DNA of 64,000 nt from Thermoplasmata archaeon (lineage in GTDB: Archaea; Thermoplasmatota; Thermoplasmata; Thermoplasmatales; Thermoplasmataceae), in the NCBI GenBank assembly GCA_021810045.1, contig JAJZJR010000010.1, positions 1-64,000 on the forward strand, written 5' to 3'. Below the pieces are notes generated by a model that was not told where the DNA came from, ran no database searches, and was given only the letters and a program-made list of their open reading frames with translations. This document shows, piece by piece, positions 5,073 through 41,719 of this stretch. The stretch's first letter is position 1. The number at the start of each line of letters is the position of its first letter. The translations under genes and the position numbers were made by a program.

Positions 5073-7806
5073 TTCTCATAGTATATACCGCTATGCCCAC
5101 AATTGCTACTGCAACAACTCCAGCAATTGCACCGTAAATTACATCCTGCGATATGGGATTGTTCTGATGCAGTGCCTTCAGATCTATTGAGATGTGCTTT
5201 ACTGCACCATTGCCAAGTGTAACATTTGTGCTGAATGAATGGTAGCCTGTATCAGTAGCCACAATATCATATGTCCCGTTTGCAACGGATACATTGAATG
5301 AGCCGTTAGAAGAAACTGCCACATCCTTTCCATTGAAGGTGAGTGTTGCATTGTCCGGCAAGACTGTTCCAGTTATGTATGCCCAGTGATAGTAATGGAC
5401 ATTTTCAGACACATTGTAACCTTTGATTGTTATAGTGAATTGGGAAGCAGATGTGTAATAACTGCTAAGATTCGTAGCTGTAAATGTATATGTACCATTT
5501 GTGAGTTCAAAGACCATGTTCTGGGATGTTGAACTCTCCGATACTCCTGTTCCGTTAACGTACCAGGCTGTGCCAGAGGGCAAACCTGATTCTGTAAAAG
5601 TTACTTTGCTCAGAACCTTGCTGAAAGTAACGGTTTCAGAAACAGAGGAATTATTTACTGTAAAGGTACCAGATCCTTTATCAGGAGAGTAGGTTTTGTC
5701 TGCGGTTGCAACTGTATAAGAATACGTCCCATTTGGCTCATAGGATGTTATCGTGGCCGTATTTGATGTCAGTGTCTGTCCATTGGAGAGGTTGACGTAC
5801 CAGGGTGTTCCAGATGGTAAGCCTGAATCGGTAAACGTTGTCTTGTACGCGTATGAAAAGTTTACCCCCTCATATAGTGCTGCACCGTTAACCGTAAAGG
5901 AGCCGGAAGAAAGTGAACGGGTGAAACCAACTGGTTCTACTGCCATAATGTGAACTGCAAAGCTTCCGTTTGGTTCATAATTCTTGTCAACTGTCGCAAT
6001 GTTGTAATAGTAGGTACCGTTAGGAACAGAGAATAAAACAGTGCTGGTAACCTTTGGGACATTTGCGGGTAATGTTTCCATAGGAGGTGCTTTCGACTTG
6101 TATGAATTGCCGTTAGTCAGATTTACGTACCATACCTGTCCTGTTGGAATTTCATATGTGTCGAATTCAACCTTGTATGTCTCTACGAATGAGATGTGCT
6201 CGATAACAGAAGACCCATTCACTGTGAGAGTTTTGTTTCCATATGCCTCAAAATTACTGTTAGATGAAGAAGTGACATAAGTGTATGTTCCATTCGGGAG
6301 ATTTATAGTGAAGCTGTCTCCACTTATGGTCCCAGAAGCCGGCTGGCCACTTACCAAAACATACCAGTCCGTTCCGGGTGACAATCCGGATTCCTTGAAT
6401 GTAACTATGTAGGCCGTGTAAAAAGATGTGTGCACAGACTCATCAGAACCACTCACATTAAATGTATTGAGAGTGCGTAATGGTGCATATCCCCTGTTAA
6501 TCGATACTACCGTATAAGAATAAGTGCCGTTGATGAGATTTATCGCATAACTGTTTCCAGTGATAGGGCCGGATTTTATGGGAGAAGGCTGCTGGTCCGT
6601 TATGTTCACATACCAAGTTGAACCGGAAGGGAGGTCTGATTCTTCAAAAGTGACTTTGTATAAATCTACAGTACTGATTTCTGAAACAGAAAAATCTTCT
6701 ATGTTTAAAACATATAAATTGGTGTTTGATGAATCGTACACAATTCCTTCTGGTTCTGTGCCAACTGAAATATTTGCAACAACTGAATTAGTGGTCGAGT
6801 TTATCACACTGACAGTGTCCGAGCCAGAATTGGAAACATAAATCTCGGCACTGGCCGGATCATATACAATTCCGTACGGTTCTGATCCAACGGATACATT
6901 TTTAACAACAGAATTCGTGGCAGAACTGATTATGGTAACATTTGAAGAACCGAAGTCTGTTATGTACATATAGCCATTTGACGGATTATATGCAATTCCA
7001 CTTGGTTCAGATCCAATGTTCAAACCTGCAACAACAGAATTGGTGGCCGGGTTAATTATTGTAACATTTCCACCATAAGTAGTTGTTTCAGTAATTACAT
7101 ATAAGTAAGTATTAACAGGATCATATGCAATCCCATAAGCTGAATTATCTGTGTCCACTTGGATTGTGTTAACCAATGAATTCGTTGTTGCATTGACTGC
7201 AAAGACATTTATGCGGGCACCATTAGAATTTACTGCATACATGTAATTGTTTGCAGGATCATATGTCAGATAACTATACCCTGTAGCACCTATGGTTATG
7301 TTTTTCACTATAGAATTCATAGTTGTGTTGATTACAGAAATATTGCCATTACCATAGTCAGAAACATAAAGGTAAGTATTAGCCGGATCATATGCCATAA
7401 AGTATGGATCTGATCCAGTTCCCAAGCTTAGATTTGCGGCAATGGAATCAGTTGTTGTGTTTATTGCTGATATTTTTCCATCGAAGAAATTATTGACATA
7501 CAAATAGTTGATGACAGGAACATAAGATATGGAAGTCGCGTTTTTTTCATTGAGATTGAAAGAAGTGTTCAAAATATTCACTTTAGCAGTTTCATGGGAC
7601 AGTAATTTGGGAACACCTGAAAACTGCCCCGGATTGTTTATTGCTGAGTTTGTCTTATGATCCAATGTTCCGGCAATAACAGAAAGTCCAGAAAGGACTG
7701 TTAACAAAATAATCAATGTTACCAATATTTTATTAAATGAATTATGCAACACCTTTTGTGATAGAAACGTTAAATTAAATATTTTCATTTTAATAAATAC
7801 TAACAC
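5065..7806 (-). CDS. Large cell-surface protein: YVTN-type beta-propeller plus repeated beta domains
   Basis: A 913-residue extracellular protein. An N-terminal membrane signal helix (about residues 24-47) precedes roughly seven 40-residue propeller repeats of the NSVVANISVGTEPEGIVYD type (about 85-390), as in archaeal YVTN surface-layer proteins. Five beta repeats follow, each with a [ST]F.ESGLPSGT.WYVN core (about 393, 470, 548, 655, 733), then a carboxypeptidase-regulatory-like domain. A C-terminal helix (about 888-908) with the tail MRKR anchors it. It probably acts in adhesion or as an S-layer component. Many N-G-T and N-x-S/T sites suggest heavy glycosylation. It is transcribed alone, with its own terminator. 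Confidence 0.85.
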   Translation of the reverse strand: MLVFIKMKIFNLTFLSQKVLHNSFNKILVTLIILLTVLSGLSVIAGTLDHKTNSAINNPGQFSGVPKLLSHETAKVNILNTSFNLNEKNATSISYVPVINYLYVNNFFDGKISAINTTTDSIAANLSLGTGSDPYFMAYDPANTYLYVSDYGNGNISVINTTMNSIVKNITIGATGYSYLTYDPANNYMYAVNSNGARINVFAVNATTNSLVNTIQVDTDNSAYGIAYDPVNTYLYVITETTTYGGNVTIINPATNSVVAGLNIGSEPSGIAYNPSNGYMYITDFGSSNVTIISSATNSVVKNVSVGSEPYGIVYDPASAEIYVSNSGSDTVSVINSTTNSVVANISVGTEPEGIVYDSSNTNLYVLNIEDFSVSEISTVDLYKVTFEESDLPSGSTWYVNITDQQPSPIKSGPITGNSYAINLINGTYSYTVVSINRGYAPLRTLNTFNVSGSDESVHTSFYTAYIVTFKESGLSPGTDWYVLVSGQPASGTISGDSFTINLPNGTYTYVTSSSNSNFEAYGNKTLTVNGSSVIEHISFVETYKVEFDTYEIPTGQVWYVNLTNGNSYKSKAPPMETLPANVPKVTSTVLFSVPNGTYYYNIATVDKNYEPNGSFAVHIMAVEPVGFTRSLSSGSFTVNGAALYEGVNFSYAYKTTFTDSGLPSGTPWYVNLSNGQTLTSNTATITSYEPNGTYSYTVATADKTYSPDKGSGTFTVNNSSVSETVTFSKVLSKVTFTESGLPSGTAWYVNGTGVSESSTSQNMVFELTNGTYTFTATNLSSYYTSASQFTITIKGYNVSENVHYYHWAYITGTVLPDNATLTFNGKDVAVSSNGSFNVSVANGTYDIVATDTGYHSFSTNVTLGNGAVKHISIDLKALHQNNPISQDVIYGAIAGVVAVAIVGIAVYTMRKR

Positions 7807-14072: not shown

Positions 14073-15281
14073 TCAATATATTGTTCCTACCTCCGAGTAA
14101 AGGGAGGGGATCAGTTTTCCTGATGCGAATCTTTCCTTGCTGAATGGTCTCCAGTCAAAGGTTGCATTTTCTGGACTTACATCTGTAACCATTTCAGAAA
14201 CAATTTTTCCATATGCTGGTGAAAGTTTGAAGCCGTGGCCGCTTAACCCTGCACACACATACACGGAATCCAGGCCCAGTGATGAAAGGGAGTCGATAAT
14301 GGCCTGGCCATCAGGTGTCATGTCATATATGCCGGATACTGTTGAAATCAGGCTGGCTTTTTTCACGGCAGGCAATCTTTGTATTATTCTTTGCAGATAA
14401 TCTTCCAGATACTCATCGGATGCACCTTCCGGAATTTCTCCGTGAATGTCAATGGGCTTGTTATCAATGCTTGGGTCAAGGCTGCCTATTGCAGTTACTG
14501 AGTTTCCTTCCATTTTGTAATAGGCTAGACTCGGAGGATCCATGAGGGTGGGACGATTCCCTTTGTATTCATCAGGCCTGCGAAGGTATATGACGTCGTG
14601 TAAGGAGGCGTTTATGGGAAGATTTTTGTTTTTTGAAATACCAGATTCGGAGAGCAAATCATTGGTCCATACATTTGTTGCAAGTATCACCTTTGAAGCT
14701 TTAATCTCAGAACCATCGTCCAGATGAACAGAAGGTCCGTTTGAGTTACTGTCAACACTGACTGCTTTCTTTTTCAGCATTATCCTTGCACCAAATTCCT
14801 TGGCCTTATCAATGAAGGCGTTAGCGGTGGCAACTGGATCAGCATAACCACTGTCTGGTTCATATGAGACAAAACCATAACCTTCTGTATTCAAGTCTGT
14901 GTAGAACTCTTTGATATAATTCACTGTAGATTCCTGCTCATTTATTCCGACAGATCTTAACATTTCTGAATTTTTCCTGGCAATGCCTGCATATTTCTCA
15001 TCAAAGGGGAAGAACATGCCTGTCCTGGTAAAGCCGGAATATCCTATACCATCAAAATCACGGAATGCATTCAAAGAATACAGAGACATTTCAGCAATAA
15101 TCCTGCTGCTGTAATGTGTTCTTACAAGAGCGCTTGATTTGCCGGTATTCCCGCTTGCAATACCATTTCTTTCAACCACAGTAACACTCTTACCCATTCT
15201 AGCCAGATGGTAGGCTATGCTTGATCCAGTGCTTCCAGAACCAATTACTACAAATTCAGATGAGGCTTTATGTTCGCCCAT
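14073..15281 (-). CDS. FAD-dependent amino-acid/amine oxidoreductase (DAO family)
   Basis: A 402-residue flavoprotein. The dinucleotide-binding motif is VVIGSGSTGSSIAYHLARMG (from about residue 11), followed by VVERN (adenosine ribose Glu). The C-terminal FAD motif, YVCAGLSGHGFKLSPAYGKIVSEM, is typical of D-amino-acid dehydrogenase, sarcosine oxidase and glycine oxidase relatives. It is convergent with the proline-racemase-like gene and co-oriented with the permease gene upstream, so oxidation of an imported or epimerised imino/amino acid is a fair inference. The precise substrate cannot be read. Confidence 0.85.
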   Translation of the reverse strand: MGEHKASSEFVVIGSGSTGSSIAYHLARMGKSVTVVERNGIASGNTGKSSALVRTHYSSRIIAEMSLYSLNAFRDFDGIGYSGFTRTGMFFPFDEKYAGIARKNSEMLRSVGINEQESTVNYIKEFYTDLNTEGYGFVSYEPDSGYADPVATANAFIDKAKEFGARIMLKKKAVSVDSNSNGPSVHLDDGSEIKASKVILATNVWTNDLLSESGISKNKNLPINASLHDVIYLRRPDEYKGNRPTLMDPPSLAYYKMEGNSVTAIGSLDPSIDNKPIDIHGEIPEGASDEYLEDYLQRIIQRLPAVKKASLISTVSGIYDMTPDGQAIIDSLSSLGLDSVYVCAGLSGHGFKLSPAYGKIVSEMVTDVSPENATFDWRPFSKERFASGKLIPSLYSEVGTIY

Positions 15282-15399
15282 GAAATGAAAATCATATTCT
15301 GAATATTAAATCATCCTTGTAAAAAATATTTAAAGCAATAATTATTATAAGAATGGCAACTTTAAAGGAAAAAATAGATATAAAAGAATTTAACAAAGT

Positions 15400-15428
15400 A
15401 AAAATTAGAGAGATGCTGTTTGCATCTC
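15400..15428 (-). terminator. Hairpin terminator after the amino-acid permease
   Basis: On the minus strand GAGATGC-AAACA-GCATCTC (15428-15410) forms a 7-bp stem and is followed by TCTAATTTTT. Confidence 0.65.
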
Positions 15429-15439
15429 ACTTTTTATGA

Positions 15440-17089
15440 CTATGCCTCAGCATCTACTGGTGCATTCTCCACAAGTGATTGCATATCTCCCAGTGGCTCT
15501 TTGGAAGCCGATACCTGCGAAATTATCCAGAATACGATTCCGTATGCAATCACAACATACACATCATAAGGGAACGGAATGATGTCTGATCCTCCTGTTA
15601 TTGATGAACCAAGGTAAGACAAAATCATCAAACCCATGATGTATATCGGTATCCAGATCGAACCTTTCAGGTTGATATTGTGCCACTTTGTCTTTATTCC
15701 CTGGTACAGGAAAACAACACTTCCGGCAAGGGTTGCTCCAAGTGCATATAAGGTGGTCGGGTAGGTTGACCAGTATATGAGCAGGGAGGCAACAACGAAT
15801 GCCACAAGTGACCAGGCTGTGCCGAATGGTACCTTGAAGGGTCTGTGCAAATTCGGGTATGACTTACGGATTATAGGTACTGATGCTGCCACTATGGCAA
15901 AATTGACAACTGCTGCCACTACCACGAAATCCACCAGAGAATACCAGCTGTGTAGAGGTATCAGGAAAAGGTCCCCAACTACGGCTACAAGTAATATGGA
16001 ATAAGTCGGAACGCCCCTCTTGTTTGTTGCTCCAAGTTTCTGAGGAAGTGCGTTTTCTCTTGTAAAACCAAATACAATCCTTGATGCTCCTGTTATGAAA
16101 ACACCAAATGTCCCCAACGGAGAGAATACTGCAAATGCAAGTGCAACTACAACAAGTCCAGCCAGTAATGGTCCACCAAATCCAGGCACTACAGTTGAGC
16201 CCGCCCTCATAAGGTCAGCCAGAGGAATACCAAGGGTAGAAACACTGCCCCAGTCACCCGGTGCAAAATTAAGTGCCTTCCAATCCACTGCACCCACAAT
16301 GACAACAGCCATAAGTATGTAAAGTACAGACTGAACGACGATTGTTATTCCTATTGCCAGTGGAAGATTTCTCTTTGGATTCTTAATCTCACCAGCCATA
16401 TCGGCAACCTGCCTGTAGCCTCCAAAAGAGAAGAGGATACCGCTTGCCGGTATTGCTAGGAAGATTCCAGACCATCCGTTAGTGGGTAGAATGAATGATG
16501 GCGTTGTGAAGTTTGAAGAATGGAAAAGAACCAGCGGCACAATTATGATCAGTAATACCACAACACCAACCTTTATCCAGGTGATAATTGTGTTAAATTT
16601 GCCCAGCCCTTTTACTCCGGCAAGGTTCAATAGAACAAAGAATATTGTGATTATGACTGATACAAATATTCCCAGAGGAGTCAGGAATGTACCATTCGTG
16701 AACTGTGGAACCCAATAGGAAGCATATGTAGCTACCGCCACAGCTTCTATCGGTGGGATCATAACGGCCCATAAAAACAGAGCCCAGCCACCGATGAAAC
16801 CACCATAGCTTCCAAATGAATAATACCCTATTCTCGCACTTATTCCGCCCCTTGGGGCCATTGACGAAAACTATGCAAATGGTATGGTAACAATGGTAAT
16901 CATAATGGCAGCAATTATCCAGGAAATTACCACACCCGGTCCTGCAAAAGCTGTTCCACCAGCCGCTGCGAAGAGAATGCCTGAACCCACTGCTCCACCA
17001 ATACCAAACAGAGCCGCATCCTGTAGGGAAAAACCTCTTTTCAGGGTTGATCCCTTTTCGACATCTACCTGTTCGTTATCCGCATACAT
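15440..17089 (-). pseudogene. Amino-acid permease (APC family) interrupted by an in-frame TAG
   Basis: The 549-codon frame encodes a 12-helix APC-superfamily transporter. N-terminal hallmarks LFGIGGAVGSGILFA and GPGVVISWIIAAIM precede codon 73, which is TAG (16873-16871). The frame then continues without shift as FSSMAPRGGISARIGYYSFG. Relatives usually have Glu at this position ((A)EFSSMAPR), so a single GAG-to-TAG change explains it. The remaining 470 codons look intact and include GASRIVFGFTRENALP. Either it is a recent pseudogene, or TAG is read through. A product re-initiated at Met77 (16861) would lack the first two helices and could hardly transport. Confidence 0.8.
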
Positions 17090-32299: not shown

Positions 32300-33523
32300 T
32301 TGAATCGCAGGAGATCAAACGAATTGAAGGCATATAAGTTCAGGCTGTACCCGTCTGCGGATCAGGAGAAGAAGCTCAACGATCAGATAGAGCTTTGCAG
32401 ACAGTTGTACAACGGATTGCTGGAGCAGAGGATAACTGCACACAGGCTGGGCCAGGGAGTGAATTATTATTCACAGCAGAACCAGCTGCCTGAACTTAGG
32501 AAAGGCTTTGAGGAATACGAGCAAATTCATTCTCAGGTCCTGCAGGATGTGGCCAAGAGAGTTGACAGAGCATACCAGAACTTTTACAGAAGGGTGAAAG
32601 AGAAGAAAACCGGCAAAATGCAGAAAGCAGGTTTTCCAAGATTCAAACCCATGACGAGGTACAGGTCGCTGACCTACCCTCAGTCGGGGTTCAAAATCAT
32701 GGAAAACGGACACCTGAAACTCTCCAAGATCGGAGAATTGAGGATGTTCATGCACCGTGAGATCATGGGTGAGATAAGGACATTGAACATTTCCCGTGAA
32801 CAGACGGGAAAATGGTATGCTTCATTCTTCGTGATGCCGGAGAAGGTAGCCAACGTCTCAGAAGAGACGGGGAAAAGTATCGGAATAGATGTGGGTCTCT
32901 TGAATCTCGCAACAATGAGTGACGGTACTGTGATCGCTAATCCCCACTTCATCAAGCAGGGGGAAAAGAGGATCAAAAGGGAACAGAGACGGTTATCACG
33001 CAAGGTTAAGGGTTCAAGGAACCGAAGAAAATACAGAATAAGAGTCGCCAGAGCTTATGAAAAGGTGATGAATCAGAGAGAGGACTTTGCACATAAGCTC
33101 TCGAATGAGATCGTGCAAAACTATGATCTCATTGTCTTCGAGGACCTGAATATAAGAAGCATGGTGAAGAACCATCATTTAGCGAAGGGCATTGCGGATG
33201 TTTCATGGAACACACTTGTGCAATACACGACTTACAAGGCTGAAAGTGCTGGTAGGGAAGTGGTGCTGGTGGATCCAAGAAATACATCAAAGCTCTGTTC
33301 CAGATGCGGATGGAAGAGGGAATCACTGGAACTGTCAGAAAGGACATTCCTCTGTGAGTCCTGAGACTATGAGATTGATCGGGATCTCAATGCCGCAATC
33401 AACATCCACAATCTTGGATTGAAGAAAGTAGGGAGGAGCACTCCCGAAGTTACGCCTGTGGAGATCGGTGCACTACCCGCAAGGGCAACCCTGATCGGCG
33501 AAGCAGGAAGCCCCGTCCCTTAG
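32300..33523 (+). pseudogene. tnpB: tnpB interrupted by an in-frame TGA
   Basis: The 407-codon frame encodes a TnpB nuclease: N-terminal LKAYKFRLYPS, RuvC Asp197 in SIGIDVGLLNLATMSDG, Glu281 in IVFEDLNI, and the zinc-finger cysteines Cys333, Cys336 and Cys352 (CSRCG, FLCES). Codon 355, where the fourth zinc Cys belongs, is TGA (33362-33364); the frame then continues with DYEIDRDLNAAINIHNLG, which holds the last catalytic Asp. The truncated product therefore lacks both the zinc site and the third active-site residue. The start is TTG, either 32300 or 32324. Confidence 0.85.
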
Positions 33524-36199: not shown

Positions 36200-37438
36200 T
36201 TATCCCAAAACCTTGGGCACATATCTCAGAACTCCAACCATTCCGCCGAAAGCTTTCTGAAGAAGCTGTCCCTCCTCGCTGTCCCCTGATATCATTTCCA
36301 CTCTTGTGTTTGACTCTTCTGCGAGTTTGTAGAAAACTTCCACAATATCTTCCTCATGATCCATGGACATTACGGCACCACAGGATTCGCAAATAGCATC
36401 CTCATCAGGTTTCTTCGCAAAGGCCTTTTCAGTACCGTCGTTTGGGCACTTATAGAAATATTGAACTTTGTTGAGATTTTCTGATATGATAAGGAGATCA
36501 ACAGCCTTCTGTTCCAGTGCTGATCTTATTGCTGCTTCCCCATATACCCCGAGTCCTCCATCGGGTTTCCTGATTTCCATCATGAACCTGTTAATGAGGT
36601 CCTTTTCTCTGGCGATCTGCATCTCCTTCATTGAATCTGCTGCTTTATCAACCAGCTCCTTTAGGCCTGTCTCATCAGTGTACCCAATATCAAAAAGATC
36701 CTTGACCTTGAATTTGATTTCATTTCTGAGATAGTCCTTCTCGAAGAAGTATTCCTTTGTTGCACCTGGTCCGCCGATAAATACAGCCTTGAGATCCTTT
36801 ATGACAGGCACGAAAGCATTATTTGCAATTTCCCCGACTTTTTTGAAGAACTCATGGGCTGCAATTTCAATAAGACGTTCATACCTTCGCGATGACTGAC
36901 CACCCTGGTGATGCTTGCTTGGAACCAGGGACTGCTCGTTGGCCACCATACTGATATTTGTACCGTTCAGGAAACCGATTGTTGCTTCCTTTCTGTCGAT
37001 CACAATAAGACCATAGGCTTCCTTGACGGCAAGTTGAGTCTTCAGCTGTTCAAGGTGGAAATTTGAATCGCACATGTACATGAATGTCTGAATTGGCTCT
37101 GGCGGCTCAATGATCTTGGTATACATTTCAGTCTGGTCACCACGGGTGGCGACATGACCGACGAAGAAAACAAGTCCGCTCTCAGGTGGAAACTTGTAAT
37201 TTTTTAATCTTGACATTATTGATTCTATCGCCGATAGAACATTTTTCCTGGTTGATTTGGATTTAATGTTGGAGGAGGTCGAATATTCTTCCCTCAGATA
37301 CTGTACCACATCTGATATCATCTTGCTAGGTGGAACGTAAAGTGAAATGAGTTCTGTGCCTCTGCCCTTAAGGTTCTCCAGCTCCTGAAGGGCCCTTTTG
37401 AATTCATATCTCCTTAACTGGAGATCATCTGTTGCCAT
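36200..37438 (-). CDS. prf1: Peptide chain release factor 1 (aRF1)
   Basis: A 412-residue archaeal class-I release factor. The three functional motifs are all present: NIKS (residues 57-60) and YMCDSNF (121-127) for stop-codon reading, and GGQ (179-181) for peptidyl-tRNA hydrolysis. The C-terminal domain carries two CxxC-like zinc pairs (YKCPNDG and CESCG). The ATG at 37438 ([10 protein letters not shown]) was chosen because the longer frame to 37645 would run through the divergent promoter and into pyrH. Because this organism's window has in-frame TAG and TGA codons in two genes, the intact eRF1 motifs are relevant. Confidence 0.95.
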
Positions 37439-37487
37439 CCTGAACAAAATTTTATAATTGTATATAACCTTATTCAGCCAGATTTTG
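37439..37487. promoter_or_regulatory. Divergent promoter between aRF1 and UMP kinase
   Basis: Only 49 bases separate the two ATGs. TTTATAATTGTATATAA (37451-37467) offers TATA elements in both directions at leaderless-type spacing. Confidence 0.6.
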
Positions 37488-38165
37488 ATGGAAACAGTTG
37501 TAATTTCCCTTGGCGGTTCAATTATATCGACGAATGGCCTCAATCTGAAATTCATGGAGGAATTCGTCCGGACCATAAGAAAACTTGAAAAAACCTGCAG
37601 GTTTGGTATTGTAGTTGGAGGCGGAAGCCTGGCAAGAACATACATCTCCGCACTGAGGGAATATCATGTTAACGATAATATCCTGGATGAGATAGGAATA
37701 AACGCTACCAGGATGAATGCACTTTCACTATCATCATTCCTGCCTGACTCCAATTCCAAAATACCTTCCACGGTAAATGATGCAGCAGAATTTTCCAGAA
37801 TATATCCGTATGTTGTAATGGGCGGTACAGAACCGGGACATACAACAGACACTGTTGCGACGTTACTTGCAGAAAGGATAGGCGCAAAGATCCTCATAAA
37901 CGCAACATCAGTTGATGGTGTGTATACCGATGATCCTAAAAAGGACCCAAATGCAAAGAAACTCGATTCCCTTAGCTATGACGAGGCAATATCTCTGGCA
38001 CTGGAAAAATCCATCGGTGCAGGCCCGAACGTTTTCATGGATCTGACCGCACTGAATATTGCCAAGAGAGCAGGAATCAAGTTATATGTCACGGATGGAA
38101 AAGATCTCTCTGAATATGAAAATATAATTTTAAATGGAAAAACCAGAGGTACGCTGATCTCTTAG
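37488..38165 (+). CDS. pyrH: UMP kinase, archaeal type
   Basis: A 225-residue amino-acid-kinase-fold protein. [11 protein letters not shown] is the phosphate-binding N-terminus, [13 protein letters not shown] the second glycine loop, and [18 protein letters not shown] plus [20 protein letters not shown] the UMP- and ATP-binding segments characteristic of archaeal PyrH. It makes UDP for pyrimidine nucleotide synthesis. The start at 37488 ([10 protein letters not shown]) follows the TATA box by about 25 bases; a longer frame from 37458 would begin inside the promoter. Confidence 0.92.
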
Positions 38166-39319
38166 AAGAACGCCTCTCTCAGGTCATATTTTATTATGGG
38201 AATCGCCAAATCCTTGCCGTTCATGTCAAGGTAGCTTTCCTTGATTGCTTTAGTAAGACGATCCATCTGCTGGACCTTTTCCTCTGGAGACATTGATCCA
38301 ATACTTTCTCTCTCCACTATCTTCTGGTATTCCGGATCGTCTTCCTCTACAATGGGAGAGAGGAATATCATATCTCCATTCTCAAGCATCATCTGTGAAA
38401 TCACGTTGGCGGTTCCCTCAACATGATCACTGTCATACTTTTTCCCGCCCATACCTGCAAGAATTACCAGCGAAACTGATATTCCATGATCCTTGAGATT
38501 ATTGATCAGGTTCAGGGTCTCGTTGACATTTATCTTATCATTGAAGAGCTTTATGACCTTGTAGCTGCCGGACTGGATGAAGACAAATATCCTGTCAAGG
38601 CCATGGTTCTTGATGTCCATATAATGAATCATGTTCTTACGCTTTGGTGTGGAAAACATGTCGAAAGCTGAAAAGAGCGGGAGACCAAAATCAGCCTTCA
38701 GTTTATCCAGGATAGGGAGAAGTTCCTTCTGATCAACATCAAGTGCACCGGGATCTCCGAGGAAGATTCCCTTCTTGGCTTTCAAACCTTCTCCGAGCTG
38801 ATTCTTCACTTTCTCAACATGTTCCATGAACTGTGCACTGTCTTTTGTCTCGACTGTCCTGCCAGCATATGAAGAAGAAATGGTACACCTGTTCCATTTG
38901 GTCCCTGAAGACAGTTCAAGATATACTGCAGATGCCTGATCGGGAGGCATAATGGGCTTTATTGCGTAAAGTGATGTTATTGCTGCTGCATCCTGCTCAA
39001 GCCATTCAGGATTTCTGGTTGATATTTTTTCAAGGATTGCCTTCTCCTCGTCGCTGAGTGTGTCCGCAGGAAAATTTCTGGCAAGTTGGTAGCACCTGTC
39101 ATAAATGGCTGATGCTTCGTCCTTCTCCAGGGGAGTAACAGAACGAACATCATTGTCCCAGCCAAGCTTGAAAAGCGAATTGTCGGATGACCTTCTGTGC
39201 ATCACTCCATTCTTTGTGTAGAAGAGAATTCTGCCCTCAAAATCGAAATTTGCAACTTCTTCGTTTCCGCTTGCAATAGTAAGTATTCCGTTGTTGATTC
39301 TGAACAGGTTACGATTCAT
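38162..39319 (-). CDS. Radical-SAM-like protein lacking two cluster cysteines
   Basis: A 385-residue protein. [20 protein letters not shown] (residues 137-154, with one break here) aligns position by position with the SGC-x4-C-x2-C cluster motif of a radical-SAM subgroup, but the first Cys is Thr140 and the third is Ser148; only Cys145 remains. Further segments fit a TIM-barrel layout: [21 protein letters not shown] and [26 protein letters not shown]. Without a [4Fe-4S] site the classical chemistry should be impossible, so it may bind SAM or a substrate without radical catalysis. Its stop overlaps the end of pyrH by four bases. Confidence 0.65.
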
Positions 39320-39411
39320 TCAATTCTCTATAGGATGTTCTCATATTACTTTTGTCCAGCGTGAAATGTAAATAAAAATAATTTATAATTTAATAAAAAT
39401 GTGGTTTTTAA

Positions 39412-40233
39412 TCAGTCCCTGATTTCTTTTTCTGCAACGAAGTATGTCAATAGAACCAAGCCTGCGGCAAGTATTGCCAGAGATCCCATCCACCATTCAA
39501 CATTTGCGACCTGGGATGAGATGACTGTTCCATTTATCACCACTGTCCTTATGGATTCTGCAGCCCAGGAAACTGGATTATACTTTGCCGCATCTGCAAG
39601 CCATGAGGCCATTATGTCCGGAGGAAACATCGCGTAACTCATGAACAGAAGTGGCAGATTTACAAGGTTGACGATTCCGAAGATGGTGTTCATATCTTTG
39701 AGTCTAACGGCTATTACGCTGAATATTGAAGAGAATATCAGTGCCACAAGAATTACAGTCACGACCAGAACAAATCCAGCCAAAAGTGAGAAACCGTGTT
39801 CAAGAACCAGCCCATTAGGTATAACAAAGGCAGCCGCTATGAGTATAACGACCTGCACCAGGATTCTTACCATTGCTGAAAGGATCTTGGAGAACACAAT
39901 GGAACTCCTCCTTATTGGCGATGTCAGAAATCTTCCCATTGGGCCAAGCCTTCTGTCAAAGATAATATTGACACCCGAAAACATTGCGGTGAACAGGCTT
40001 GTTATAACTAGTATTCCACCAAGTATGAAGGTGATATAATTTGAAGCACCCTGGAAAATAACACCGGCCGCTGCACTTGTGGCTGCACCTCCCCCAAGGA
40101 ATTTTGAAATATCAATTGCACTTCCAAAGAGTGCTAGCCAGAAGAAGGGCTGAATCAGTCCTGTTAAAAGAAAAACAGGATTTCTGTACCATTTCTTGAG
40201 TTCTCTGGCAGTAAGTGGGGCTAATCCGCTCAT
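39412..40233 (-). CDS. ABC-2 type exporter permease
   Basis: A 273-residue permease with six membrane helices. The N-terminal amphipathic RELKKWYRNPVFLLTGLIQP and the cytosolic loop NIIFDRRLGPMGRFLTSPIRRS are hallmarks of the DrrB/NodJ-type ABC-2 group, which exports drugs or lipid-linked molecules. Its ATG overlaps the ATPase stop (ATGA), so it is the last gene of a three-gene PadR-ATPase-permease operon. No signs of damage. Confidence 0.9.
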   Translation of the reverse strand: MSGLAPLTARELKKWYRNPVFLLTGLIQPFFWLALFGSAIDISKFLGGGAATSAAAGVIFQGASNYITFILGGILVITSLFTAMFSGVNIIFDRRLGPMGRFLTSPIRRSSIVFSKILSAMVRILVQVVILIAAAFVIPNGLVLEHGFSLLAGFVLVVTVILVALIFSSIFSVIAVRLKDMNTIFGIVNLVNLPLLFMSYAMFPPDIMASWLADAAKYNPVSWAAESIRTVVINGTVISSQVANVEWWMGSLAILAAGLVLLTYFVAEKEIRD

Positions 40234-41222
40234 CTCCTCATCCTCCTCATGTTCATCATCATTTTCCTGACATCTCCGGCGTCCTCCTGTCGTATATCTC
40301 TGCCAGTATACTGCAGGAATACCTCGTCCAAAGAAGGTTTTTGAACAGTCATTCTCATTATTGTGAGATTGTTTTCGGAAACGTATTTAATTAAAACCGG
40401 CAGTACTTCGTCGGAATTTCTCACAGTAACTCTCACTATATTTGGTCCAAAGTCTCTTGCCTCAGTTGCCTCCGGGAATTTTTTCATGGTTTCGGCATCT
40501 TCCTGATTCTTGAATGTCAACTGGACAATATCGCCCTTCAGGCTTTCCTTGAGTCCCTCTGGAGTTCCGGTGATCAGGATTTTTCCATGATCTATTATGG
40601 AAATCCTGTTGGCAAGTGCATCCACTTCTTCCAGATAGTGGCTGGTGAGAATAATAGTTACATTGAGTTTTTTCTGAATATCCCTGACATATTCCCACAT
40701 CTGTGTTCTTGTCTGCACATCAAGGCCAAGGGTCGGTTCATCGAGGAAAAGGATCTTTGGGTCATGGACAAGGCCTACTATGAGTTCAAGACGTTTCCTC
40801 ATACCTCCTGAATATTGTTTGACATATCTGGAGGCTGCTTCCTCTAGATCCACAAGTCGCAGAAGAGTTGCAATTCTCTCATTTGCCAAGTTTTTGGGTA
40901 CATCGTAGAAACGGGCAACCATCATGAGATTCTCGTAACCTGTCAGATCCTCGTCGGTGGTTAGATCCTGTGGTACTACACCAATGACCTTTCTGACATC
41001 CATCGAATGTTTCTTGATATCAAAGCCGCCAACCAGTGCTGTGCCTGATGTGGGCGTGATTCTGGTTGTAAGCAGGTTTATGGTTGTGCTCTTTCCTGCA
41101 CCGTTTGGTCCAAGCAGCCCATAAACTTCTCCCTCTTCTATCTCAATATTCAGGTCTTCAAGTGCTTTTATCTTTCCTCCATATATCTTGGAAAGATTTT
41201 CTGTTTTGATAATTACCGGCAT
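40230..41222 (-). CDS. ABC exporter ATP-binding protein (DrrA type)
   Basis: About 330 residues. Walker A is GLLGPNGAGKST, the signature YSGGMRKRLELI, Walker B ILFLDEPTLGLD, and the switch His is in ILTSHYLEEVD. The C-terminal 100 residues are the DrrA-type extension that couples to the permease. ATG 41222 was chosen because GGAGTGA lies eight bases upstream; a GTG at 41234 overlapping the PadR stop would add four residues. It is controlled with the upstream padR gene. Confidence 0.93.
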   Translation of the reverse strand: MPVIIKTENLSKIYGGKIKALEDLNIEIEEGEVYGLLGPNGAGKSTTINLLTTRITPTSGTALVGGFDIKKHSMDVRKVIGVVPQDLTTDEDLTGYENLMMVARFYDVPKNLANERIATLLRLVDLEEAASRYVKQYSGGMRKRLELIVGLVHDPKILFLDEPTLGLDVQTRTQMWEYVRDIQKKLNVTIILTSHYLEEVDALANRISIIDHGKILITGTPEGLKESLKGDIVQLTFKNQEDAETMKKFPEATEARDFGPNIVRVTVRNSDEVLPVLIKYVSENNLTIMRMTVQKPSLDEVFLQYTGRDIRQEDAGDVRKMMMNMRRMRR

Positions 41223-41230
41223 TTTTGTTT

Positions 41231-41719
41231 TCACTCCAATTTTAATTTTGATAATCTTTCTGTGAGCTCCATAATCCTTTCCCTGTGATCTTTCAGGTTT
41301 CCCTGTTCATCTTCCAGATAGGATATGTAACCCTCTATCTCTGTAAGTATTTTGTCAATGTCCCAGTTTTCTGTGCTTGAAGTTTTGGTTTCGCCAGGCT
41401 TTAATCCAATTTCTTCTGCACCAGCAGGTGTAAGAGAATACCTCAGATCGTGTTCTTTTTTCACCAAGCCATCCTTTAGAAGTGTATTAAGCAGAGGATA
41501 AATTGTTCCGGGACTTGGCCTCCACCATCCCATTGTCTGTCTCTGTACAGTCTCAATAATTTCTGAACCTCTGAGATTTTTCTGGCTCAATAGCCAAAGA
41601 ACGTAATATTTCATACCCCCATGTCTTCTAAAGTTGTGGGCGAAGCTGAAATTGCCTGGATCGAAGCCTTTGAAGAACTCTTTGCTGGTTCCAAAATCCT
41701 TCTCACTGGGTCTAAACAT
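41231..41719 (-). CDS. PadR-family transcriptional regulator
   Basis: A 162-residue PadR repressor. The winged helix runs over GGMKYYVLWLLSQKNLRGSE, ending with the characteristic GTIYPLLNTLLKDGLVKKE (residues about 76-94), then a C-terminal helical dimerisation region with HRERIMELTERLSKL. PadR proteins adjacent to ABC exporters usually repress them and release DNA on drug binding. It is the first gene of the operon and a perfect inverted repeat lies just upstream of its ATG, so autoregulation is likely. Confidence 0.9.
   Translation of the reverse strand: MFRPSEKDFGTSKEFFKGFDPGNFSFAHNFRRHGGMKYYVLWLLSQKNLRGSEIIETVQRQTMGWWRPSPGTIYPLLNTLLKDGLVKKEHDLRYSLTPAGAEEIGLKPGETKTSSTENWDIDKILTEIEGYISYLEDEQGNLKDHRERIMELTERLSKLKLE

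Follow-up and report, generated by a model that had tools for sequence, protein, structure and literature searches.

A radical-SAM-fold protein without its cluster cysteines, probably a functional pseudoenzyme, in an archaeal family with repeated loss of the motif

What does a protein of radical-SAM fold do once the cysteines of its iron-sulfur cluster are gone? The question is raised by a gene at 38162..39319, on the minus strand, of a 64,000-nucleotide stretch of DNA from a Thermoplasmata archaeon (contig JAJZJR010000010.1), which as a whole we call the window. The gene was recognized by a 385-amino-acid open reading frame that starts at 39319 and has its stop within these coordinates, by a PF04055 match at the cut-off, and by full-length homologues; frame 1 of the plus strand over the same interval contains many stops. 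Members of the radical-SAM superfamily are usually picked out by the cluster motif, and annotation is inclined to infer radical chemistry from the fold. In the window protein, the middle cysteine alone is left of the CX4CX2C motif. The degenerate cluster loop (residues 138 to 151; 38867..38908, minus strand) has Thr140, Cys145, and Ser148, with the first and third cysteines replaced and with Trp142 and Asn143 kept, as they are in all 40 rows of the family alignment. The first-pass annotation had placed Thr140 and Ser148 at the positions of the first and third cysteines, and the family bears this out: intact homologues have GC-x4-C-x2-C at the same columns (140, 145, and 148 in window numbering), so that CX4CX2C is the ancestral motif and two of its three cysteines have been lost. 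The window protein contains two cysteines in total, at residues 76 and 145, and a count of cysteines over the ten family members with a broken motif found no substitute elsewhere in these proteins.

The PF04055 match falls exactly at the curated cut-off (29.5 bits against 29.5; E, 9.9e-7) and reaches 30.5 bits in a genome-wide run. As for the features of the PF04055 superfamily, the partial TIM-barrel fold is present in the predicted model, and the three-cysteine motif for the [4Fe-4S] cluster is absent, the three columns reading T-C-S. The homology itself is certain, because full-length intact homologues in the same genus share 57 to 59% identity with the window protein. Judged from its sequence, the protein lacks the cysteines needed for the usual [4Fe-4S] cluster, and their absence predicts that it does not cleave SAM reductively. 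Among the 23 Radical_SAM matches in the window genome, 22 are in frames with C-x(3-7)-C-x2-C, the window protein being the sole exception. The usual spacing between the first and second cysteines of the radical-SAM motif is x3, whereas this family has x4. The x4 spacing is shared by a further radical-SAM protein that the window genome encodes (CPHGKCIYC), and a Radical_SAM protein on contig C78 (locus L152) has the spacing GC-x7-C-x2-C, another nonstandard cluster motif. In Mmp10, the cluster cysteines are C15, C19, and C22 (PMC8828468).

The family of the window protein (f1) gave a match at an E value of 1e-25 or better in 35 of the 77 genomes examined, and its alignment has 40 usable rows; a frameshifted copy in genome G012, in two pieces and with its motif intact, was left out of the tree, as was the split-off N-terminal piece of the copy in G093. 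Cysteines occupy all three motif columns in 30 of the 40 rows (31 of 41 with the G012 copy counted). From other Thermoplasmatota, 22 outgroup loci were taken, fewer than all the matches found; one yielded no row, and the other 21 are all intact, so that 51 of 61 rows overall carry the full motif and ten are broken. The broken rows are spread over five genera. In g1, the genus of the window, four members read TCS, TCS, VCS, and ACS, and two further members are intact. The two broken g7 rows, one of them from UBA447, both read AST, the g9 row (a single-contig genome) reads SCA, the two g14 rows read SGF and SCF, and the g5 row, from a 79%-complete genome, reads CSC and has lost one cysteine only. 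Both g7 proteins have no cysteine in the whole chain, the g9 protein has one, and the g5 protein and each g14 protein have two; 22 of the 30 intact family members have exactly three, all of them in the motif. The losses are confined to a loss-prone clade of 17 rows (six g1, five g12, two g7, one g5, one g9, and two g14), and the remaining 23 family rows are all intact. Cysteine loss is thus not a trait of the whole order Thermoplasmatales, a possibility that the first-pass annotation had raised, but is found in five genera and 10 of 40 family rows. An error of sequencing or assembly was considered and rejected, the loss being seen in four g1, two g7, and two g14 genomes as well as the single-contig g9 genome; it is very unlikely because loss of the first and third cysteines is common to four g1 genomes, each a separate species, with residue 140 being T, T, V, and A. 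In one g14 genome (L089) the gene is present twice, once intact and once broken, with about 9 kb between the two copies (5178-6335, plus strand, and 15225-16358, minus strand); the broken copy adjoins PadR/ABC genes.

How many separate losses this distribution represents was addressed by tree tests of the broken rows. The ten do not belong to a single clade: forcing them together, with the motif columns left out of the alignment, was rejected (p-AU, 0.001), and when the tree was confined to the family, the broken g1 quartet came out as the sister group of the intact g1 pair, with support of 98/98. Taken pairwise as one clade, six of the ten combinations of broken lineages were rejected at an uncorrected 0.05 (g1 with g9, p of 3e-5; g5 with g9, 0.007; g1 with g5, 0.009; g7 with g9, 0.012; g14 with g9, 0.016; g5 with g14, 0.048). 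The other four were not (g5 with g7, 0.069; g1 with g14, 0.088; g1 with g7, 0.13; g7 with g14, 0.46), nor was a joint clade of g1, g7, and g14 (0.068). After correction for ten pairwise tests, g1 with g9 alone survives, besides the test of all ten. Assuming that a lost cysteine is not regained, g1 and g9 are firmly separate losses, and g1, g9, and g5 are nominally three; the cysteine lost in g5 also differs from those lost in g9. Five losses are implied by the tree, a reading of it and no proven number, because four pairs and the g1-g7-g14 group were not rejected and the p values are uncorrected. Plain parsimony with regain allowed requires four changes on the 61-row tree and three on the family tree. 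The differing replacement residues seen in the aligned sequences likewise point to separate events, and the long branches of g9, g5, and g14 make their positions in the tree less sure.

An AlphaFold2 model of the window protein, from a 13-row alignment, has a pLDDT of 87.3 and a pTM of 0.85. Its best structural matches are MqnE (Z, 14.6; rmsd, 3.4; 223 aligned) and MgmA (Z, 14.0; rmsd, 3.8; 229 aligned), followed by NifB and viperin, with the matched rows spanning mainly residues 61 to 385, and MgmA stands on top of the Foldseek list (E, 1.2e-6). The TIM barrel that the first-pass annotation expected in a structure prediction is therefore present, with these Z scores to solved radical-SAM enzymes, and in the model the window protein appears to keep the whole predicted radical-SAM barrel. 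The core (residues 122 to 325; 38345..38956, minus strand) is predicted as a partial TIM barrel, and the N-terminal part (residues 1 to 120; 38960..39319, minus strand), for which seven short strands and three helices are predicted, can be aligned to the homologues from Deinococcus. The zero-cysteine UBA447 protein gave a model with a pLDDT of 88.4 that matches MgmA at a Z of 14.9 (rmsd, 3.5; 226 aligned). Since both alignments include intact relatives, the two models show compatibility with the fold and are no independent proof of it. Seventeen positions are specific to the loss-prone clade, being conserved in at least 88% of its 17 rows, intact and broken together, and rare in the other 23; g5 and g9 deviate at several of them. 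Five of the seventeen lie in residues 219 to 235 (38615..38665, minus strand), the loop after strand 215-220, which contains TPKRKNMI and in which the block 221 to 230 is of low confidence in the window model (pLDDT, 62). The active sites of such barrels sit on the side of the strands' C-terminal ends. In the window model, positions 219, 229 to 231, 235, 253, and 298 follow the C-terminal ends of predicted strands and, going by that predicted secondary structure, would lie on the active-site side.

Known proteins resemble the window protein to different extents. Those of Deinococcus radiodurans (WP_063653089.1) and D. ficus (WP_244940407.1) are similar in length to the f1 family and have the same order of parts. 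These plasmid-borne, intact relatives show 31% identity over 95 to 97% of an intact g6 query, and their records are annotated "radical SAM protein" only. The full-length family includes them, as the alignment, made between the window protein and intact family members and between intact members and Deinococcus, covers both the N-terminal part and the C-terminal YDLxE. The Deinococcus proteins and the intact family members keep GC-x4-C-x2-C, whereas the window protein is without the first and third cysteines. The best NCBIfam match of the window protein is TIGR04014, the model for MgmA, the methyl-coenzyme M reductase glutamine methylase (PDB 9ccb), but the score of 25.5 bits against a cut-off of 360 bits places the window protein outside that family; the short name of the model, B12_SAM, marks a B12/SAM family, and the alignment covers residues 130 to 314 only. 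The family profile matches the core of OxsB (PDB 5ul2; E, 2e-9), which shares the x4 spacing (GCDYSRCTFC) but, unlike the window protein, is a cobalamin-dependent chain of 744 residues with all three cysteines. The outgroup radical-SAM proteins of other Thermoplasmatota (291 to 333 amino acids) have a homologous core with CX4CX2C but are shorter than the family and are matched only from about residue 70 to 180 of the model onward. Cluster-less radical-SAM relatives are already a known kind, to go by the name of the NCBIfam pseudo-SAM/SPASM family TIGR04347, a radical-SAM-related pseudo family that we judged by its name alone; it was matched neither by the window protein at E values up to 1 nor by the 13 alignment rows at E values up to 0.01. 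NCBIfam presumably holds other "pseudo-rSAM" models as well. The literature matches listed, judged from the openings of their abstracts, include no paper on cluster-less radical-SAM proteins, which is no proof of absence. As far as those matches show, what is new here is that loss has recurred within one family, in which intact sisters are found in the same genus and some proteins are devoid of cysteine.

The gene neighborhood offers a hint of context. A DrrB-like ABC-2 permease gene (39412..40233; below the TIGR01247 cut-off) lies 92 bp upstream of the window gene, preceded by the genes for a DrrA-like ABC ATPase (40230..41234; above the TIGR01188 cut-off) and, upstream of the ATPase, a PadR-type regulator (41231..41719), all on the minus strand. 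An archaeal UMP kinase gene (pyrH; 37458..38165, plus strand) converges with the window gene and overlaps it by 4 bp; this gene and that for peptide chain release factor aRF1 (36200..37645, minus strand, the listed frame probably extending too far at its start) are part of the shared surroundings. The permease is immediately upstream in 15 of 22 loci (the 17 loss-prone rows plus five g6 rows), including six of the ten broken copies. As to the remaining seven, two could not be judged (a contig end and a split N terminus), the g9 permease is three genes away, and it is not immediately upstream in g5, at one of the broken g7 loci, or at either of the intact g1 loci. Among the 18 other family loci, none of the seven inspected has a permease immediately upstream, and no neighbor is common to all the family loci inspected. 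The gaps between permease and gene in the 15 loci run from 74 to 462 bp, and the upstream gene of the intact g1 loci is divergent, so that a separate promoter could be accommodated and the link to the exporter is weak. Gene order hints at a tie between the window protein and the PadR/DrrAB-type export operon. The broken g1 members inspected here, three of the four, have in common a short motif resembling GCTGGACAAA..TAATA that precedes the start codon by some tens of nucleotides (in the window, the upstream region is about 39320-39412); it may be a promoter or leader element.

Other loci point to other contexts. On the Deinococcus plasmids (loci L131 and L132), the intact relatives are found near Rrf2-type regulators and adjoin a flavohaemoprotein or a truncated haemoglobin gene, one of the two loci also having a SufS-type desulfurase nearby; these neighbors hint that the intact family may belong to a nitrosative-stress or Fe-S context. 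In a g19 genome (L071, 255-1304 and 1301-1882), the intact gene shares 4 bp with a gene for a MobA/MocA-type nucleotidyltransferase-like protein. The Deinococcus neighbors and the g19 gene together suggest that the contexts differ. Elsewhere in the window, a 354-amino-acid open reading frame (32300-33364, plus strand), which reads like an IS605/IS607-type TnpB ending soon after the start of the zinc finger, is placed between a conserved neighbor and the CDC48 gene; it is missing at the same spot in the three other loci of the genus that cover it (L076, L077, and L078), and a relative in the same cluster occurs near the g9 copy of the radical-SAM-fold gene.

Whether such a gene is still in use was judged from dN/dS, obtained by Nei-Gojobori counting, and from its frames. 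The ratios are 0.055 to 0.112 among broken g1 pairs (five of six pairs with finite dS), 0.056 for the broken g7 pair, 0.077 for the broken g14 pair, and 0.058 to 0.20 among intact pairs (9 of 11 with finite dS); they are rough, many of the pairs being close to synonymous saturation, and all are far below 1. In the zero-cysteine g7 pair, 4% of the nonsynonymous core sites differ and the synonymous sites are saturated. The frame is full length in nine of the ten broken rows and truncated at a contig end in the other, and no internal stop was found in any of the ten. With dN/dS as low in the broken genes as in their intact relatives, the window protein evidently does something, and its gene is maintained by purifying selection, which agrees with the first-pass description of a protein otherwise well maintained. 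That annotation had also held that homologues of the same order retaining all three cysteines would mark a local pseudogene. Such homologues do exist, in the family and even in the genus, but they do not imply decay, because the low ratios and the full-length frames speak against it. A decaying pseudogene would account for lost cluster cysteines beside intact orthologues in one genus; set against the ratios of the broken g1 genes at near-saturated synonymous change, the frames, and a shared gene order, it retains almost no probability, and we regard it as ruled out by dN/dS and frame integrity. The window protein has what characterizes a pseudoenzyme, in that its gene is kept by selection and it is missing catalytic residues that its homologues possess, a comparison made at the sequence level with homologues whose own activity is putative.

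If the protein is functional, its chemistry has to be asked about. The two intact g1 rows and the five g12 rows agree at 133 columns. The broken g1 proteins all depart from them at only 11 of these, which include C140, C148, E249Q, H262K, and M287L; the g9 protein also has E249Q and M287L. In none of the five broken lineages is the cluster/SAM site, whose residues were our own assignment, significantly enriched in changes (Fisher p of 0.20, 1.0, 0.60, 1.0, and 0.19), so that a loss of SAM binding is likewise unsupported. SAM might still be used, through polar chemistry or in a SAM/SAH sensor, with the cluster lost and the SAM pocket kept. Gly188, Asp189, Gly251, Gly289, Gly291, His299, and Asp316, identical in all ten broken rows, and Ser250, in nine of them, would suit this, as would a barrel that is predicted to be intact. 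We nevertheless consider it unlikely, as a comparison of rows at position 249 (codon 38573..38575, minus strand) finds Glu in all 30 intact family rows and all 21 outgroup rows but Gln in the four broken g1 rows and the broken g9 row, and the Asn of the GDANA stretch, present in 29 of 30 intact family rows, is Gly, Ser, or Arg in g1, g9, and g14; we take both places to be where the SAM motifs of the fold lie. Alternatively, the window protein might be the noncatalytic partner of another, intact radical-SAM protein in a two-subunit enzyme. The 22 other Radical_SAM matches with a motif in the window genome would supply candidates, and the g14 genome with intact and broken copies some 9 kb apart is compatible with the idea, but the f1 family is matched only once in the window genome, and only once in the single-contig g9 genome, so that a partner would need to belong to a different family, and we think this arrangement quite improbable. 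A cluster might even still be bound, by the remaining cysteine and noncysteine ligands or between subunits, with radical chemistry surviving: the broken g1 rows, g9, and one of the g14 proteins still have the second cysteine, g5 still has two motif cysteines, and Mmp10 provides a precedent in Tyr115, a noncysteine fourth cluster ligand (PMC8828468). The two proteins with no cysteine and the replacements T, V, A, S, F, and G, which make up no consistent ligand set, leave little room for this, and its likelihood is very small.

The reading we favor, and hold to be reasonably probable, is that the window protein is a functional radical-SAM pseudoenzyme whose barrel has been kept for a cluster-independent role, probably the binding of a ligand or partner. 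The loss-prone clade may already have had a job that needed the folded barrel and not radical chemistry, in which case the cluster would have been dispensable and repeatedly lost. That job would most likely be to bind a small molecule or a protein partner at the face of the barrel where the active site lies, since the clade-specific residues there (219, 229 to 231, 235, 253, and 298) are kept in most members with or without the cluster. The window protein may be a sensor, carrier, or scaffold tied to the neighboring PadR/DrrAB-type export operon. Arguments balance about evenly on the fuller history, in which a cluster-independent function would have come first and the [4Fe-4S] site would then have been lost separately up to five times, down to proteins with no cysteine, with strong purifying selection acting on the barrel throughout. 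The repurposed, cluster-less radical-SAM fold proposed in the first-pass annotation thus holds as regards the predicted barrel, the missing cluster cysteines, and the selection; a new function, which "repurposed" implies, is something we infer.

The unusual aspect of these proteins is the repeated loss inside one archaeal family. If the favored reading is true, a barrel kept under selection after repeated loss of its cluster would mean that the fold can carry a cluster-free function. Because intact and cluster-less related proteins occur within one genus, the two can be compared directly, and the clade, with members that are intact or have lost one, two, or three cysteines, would be a natural series leading from a radical enzyme to a nonradical protein.
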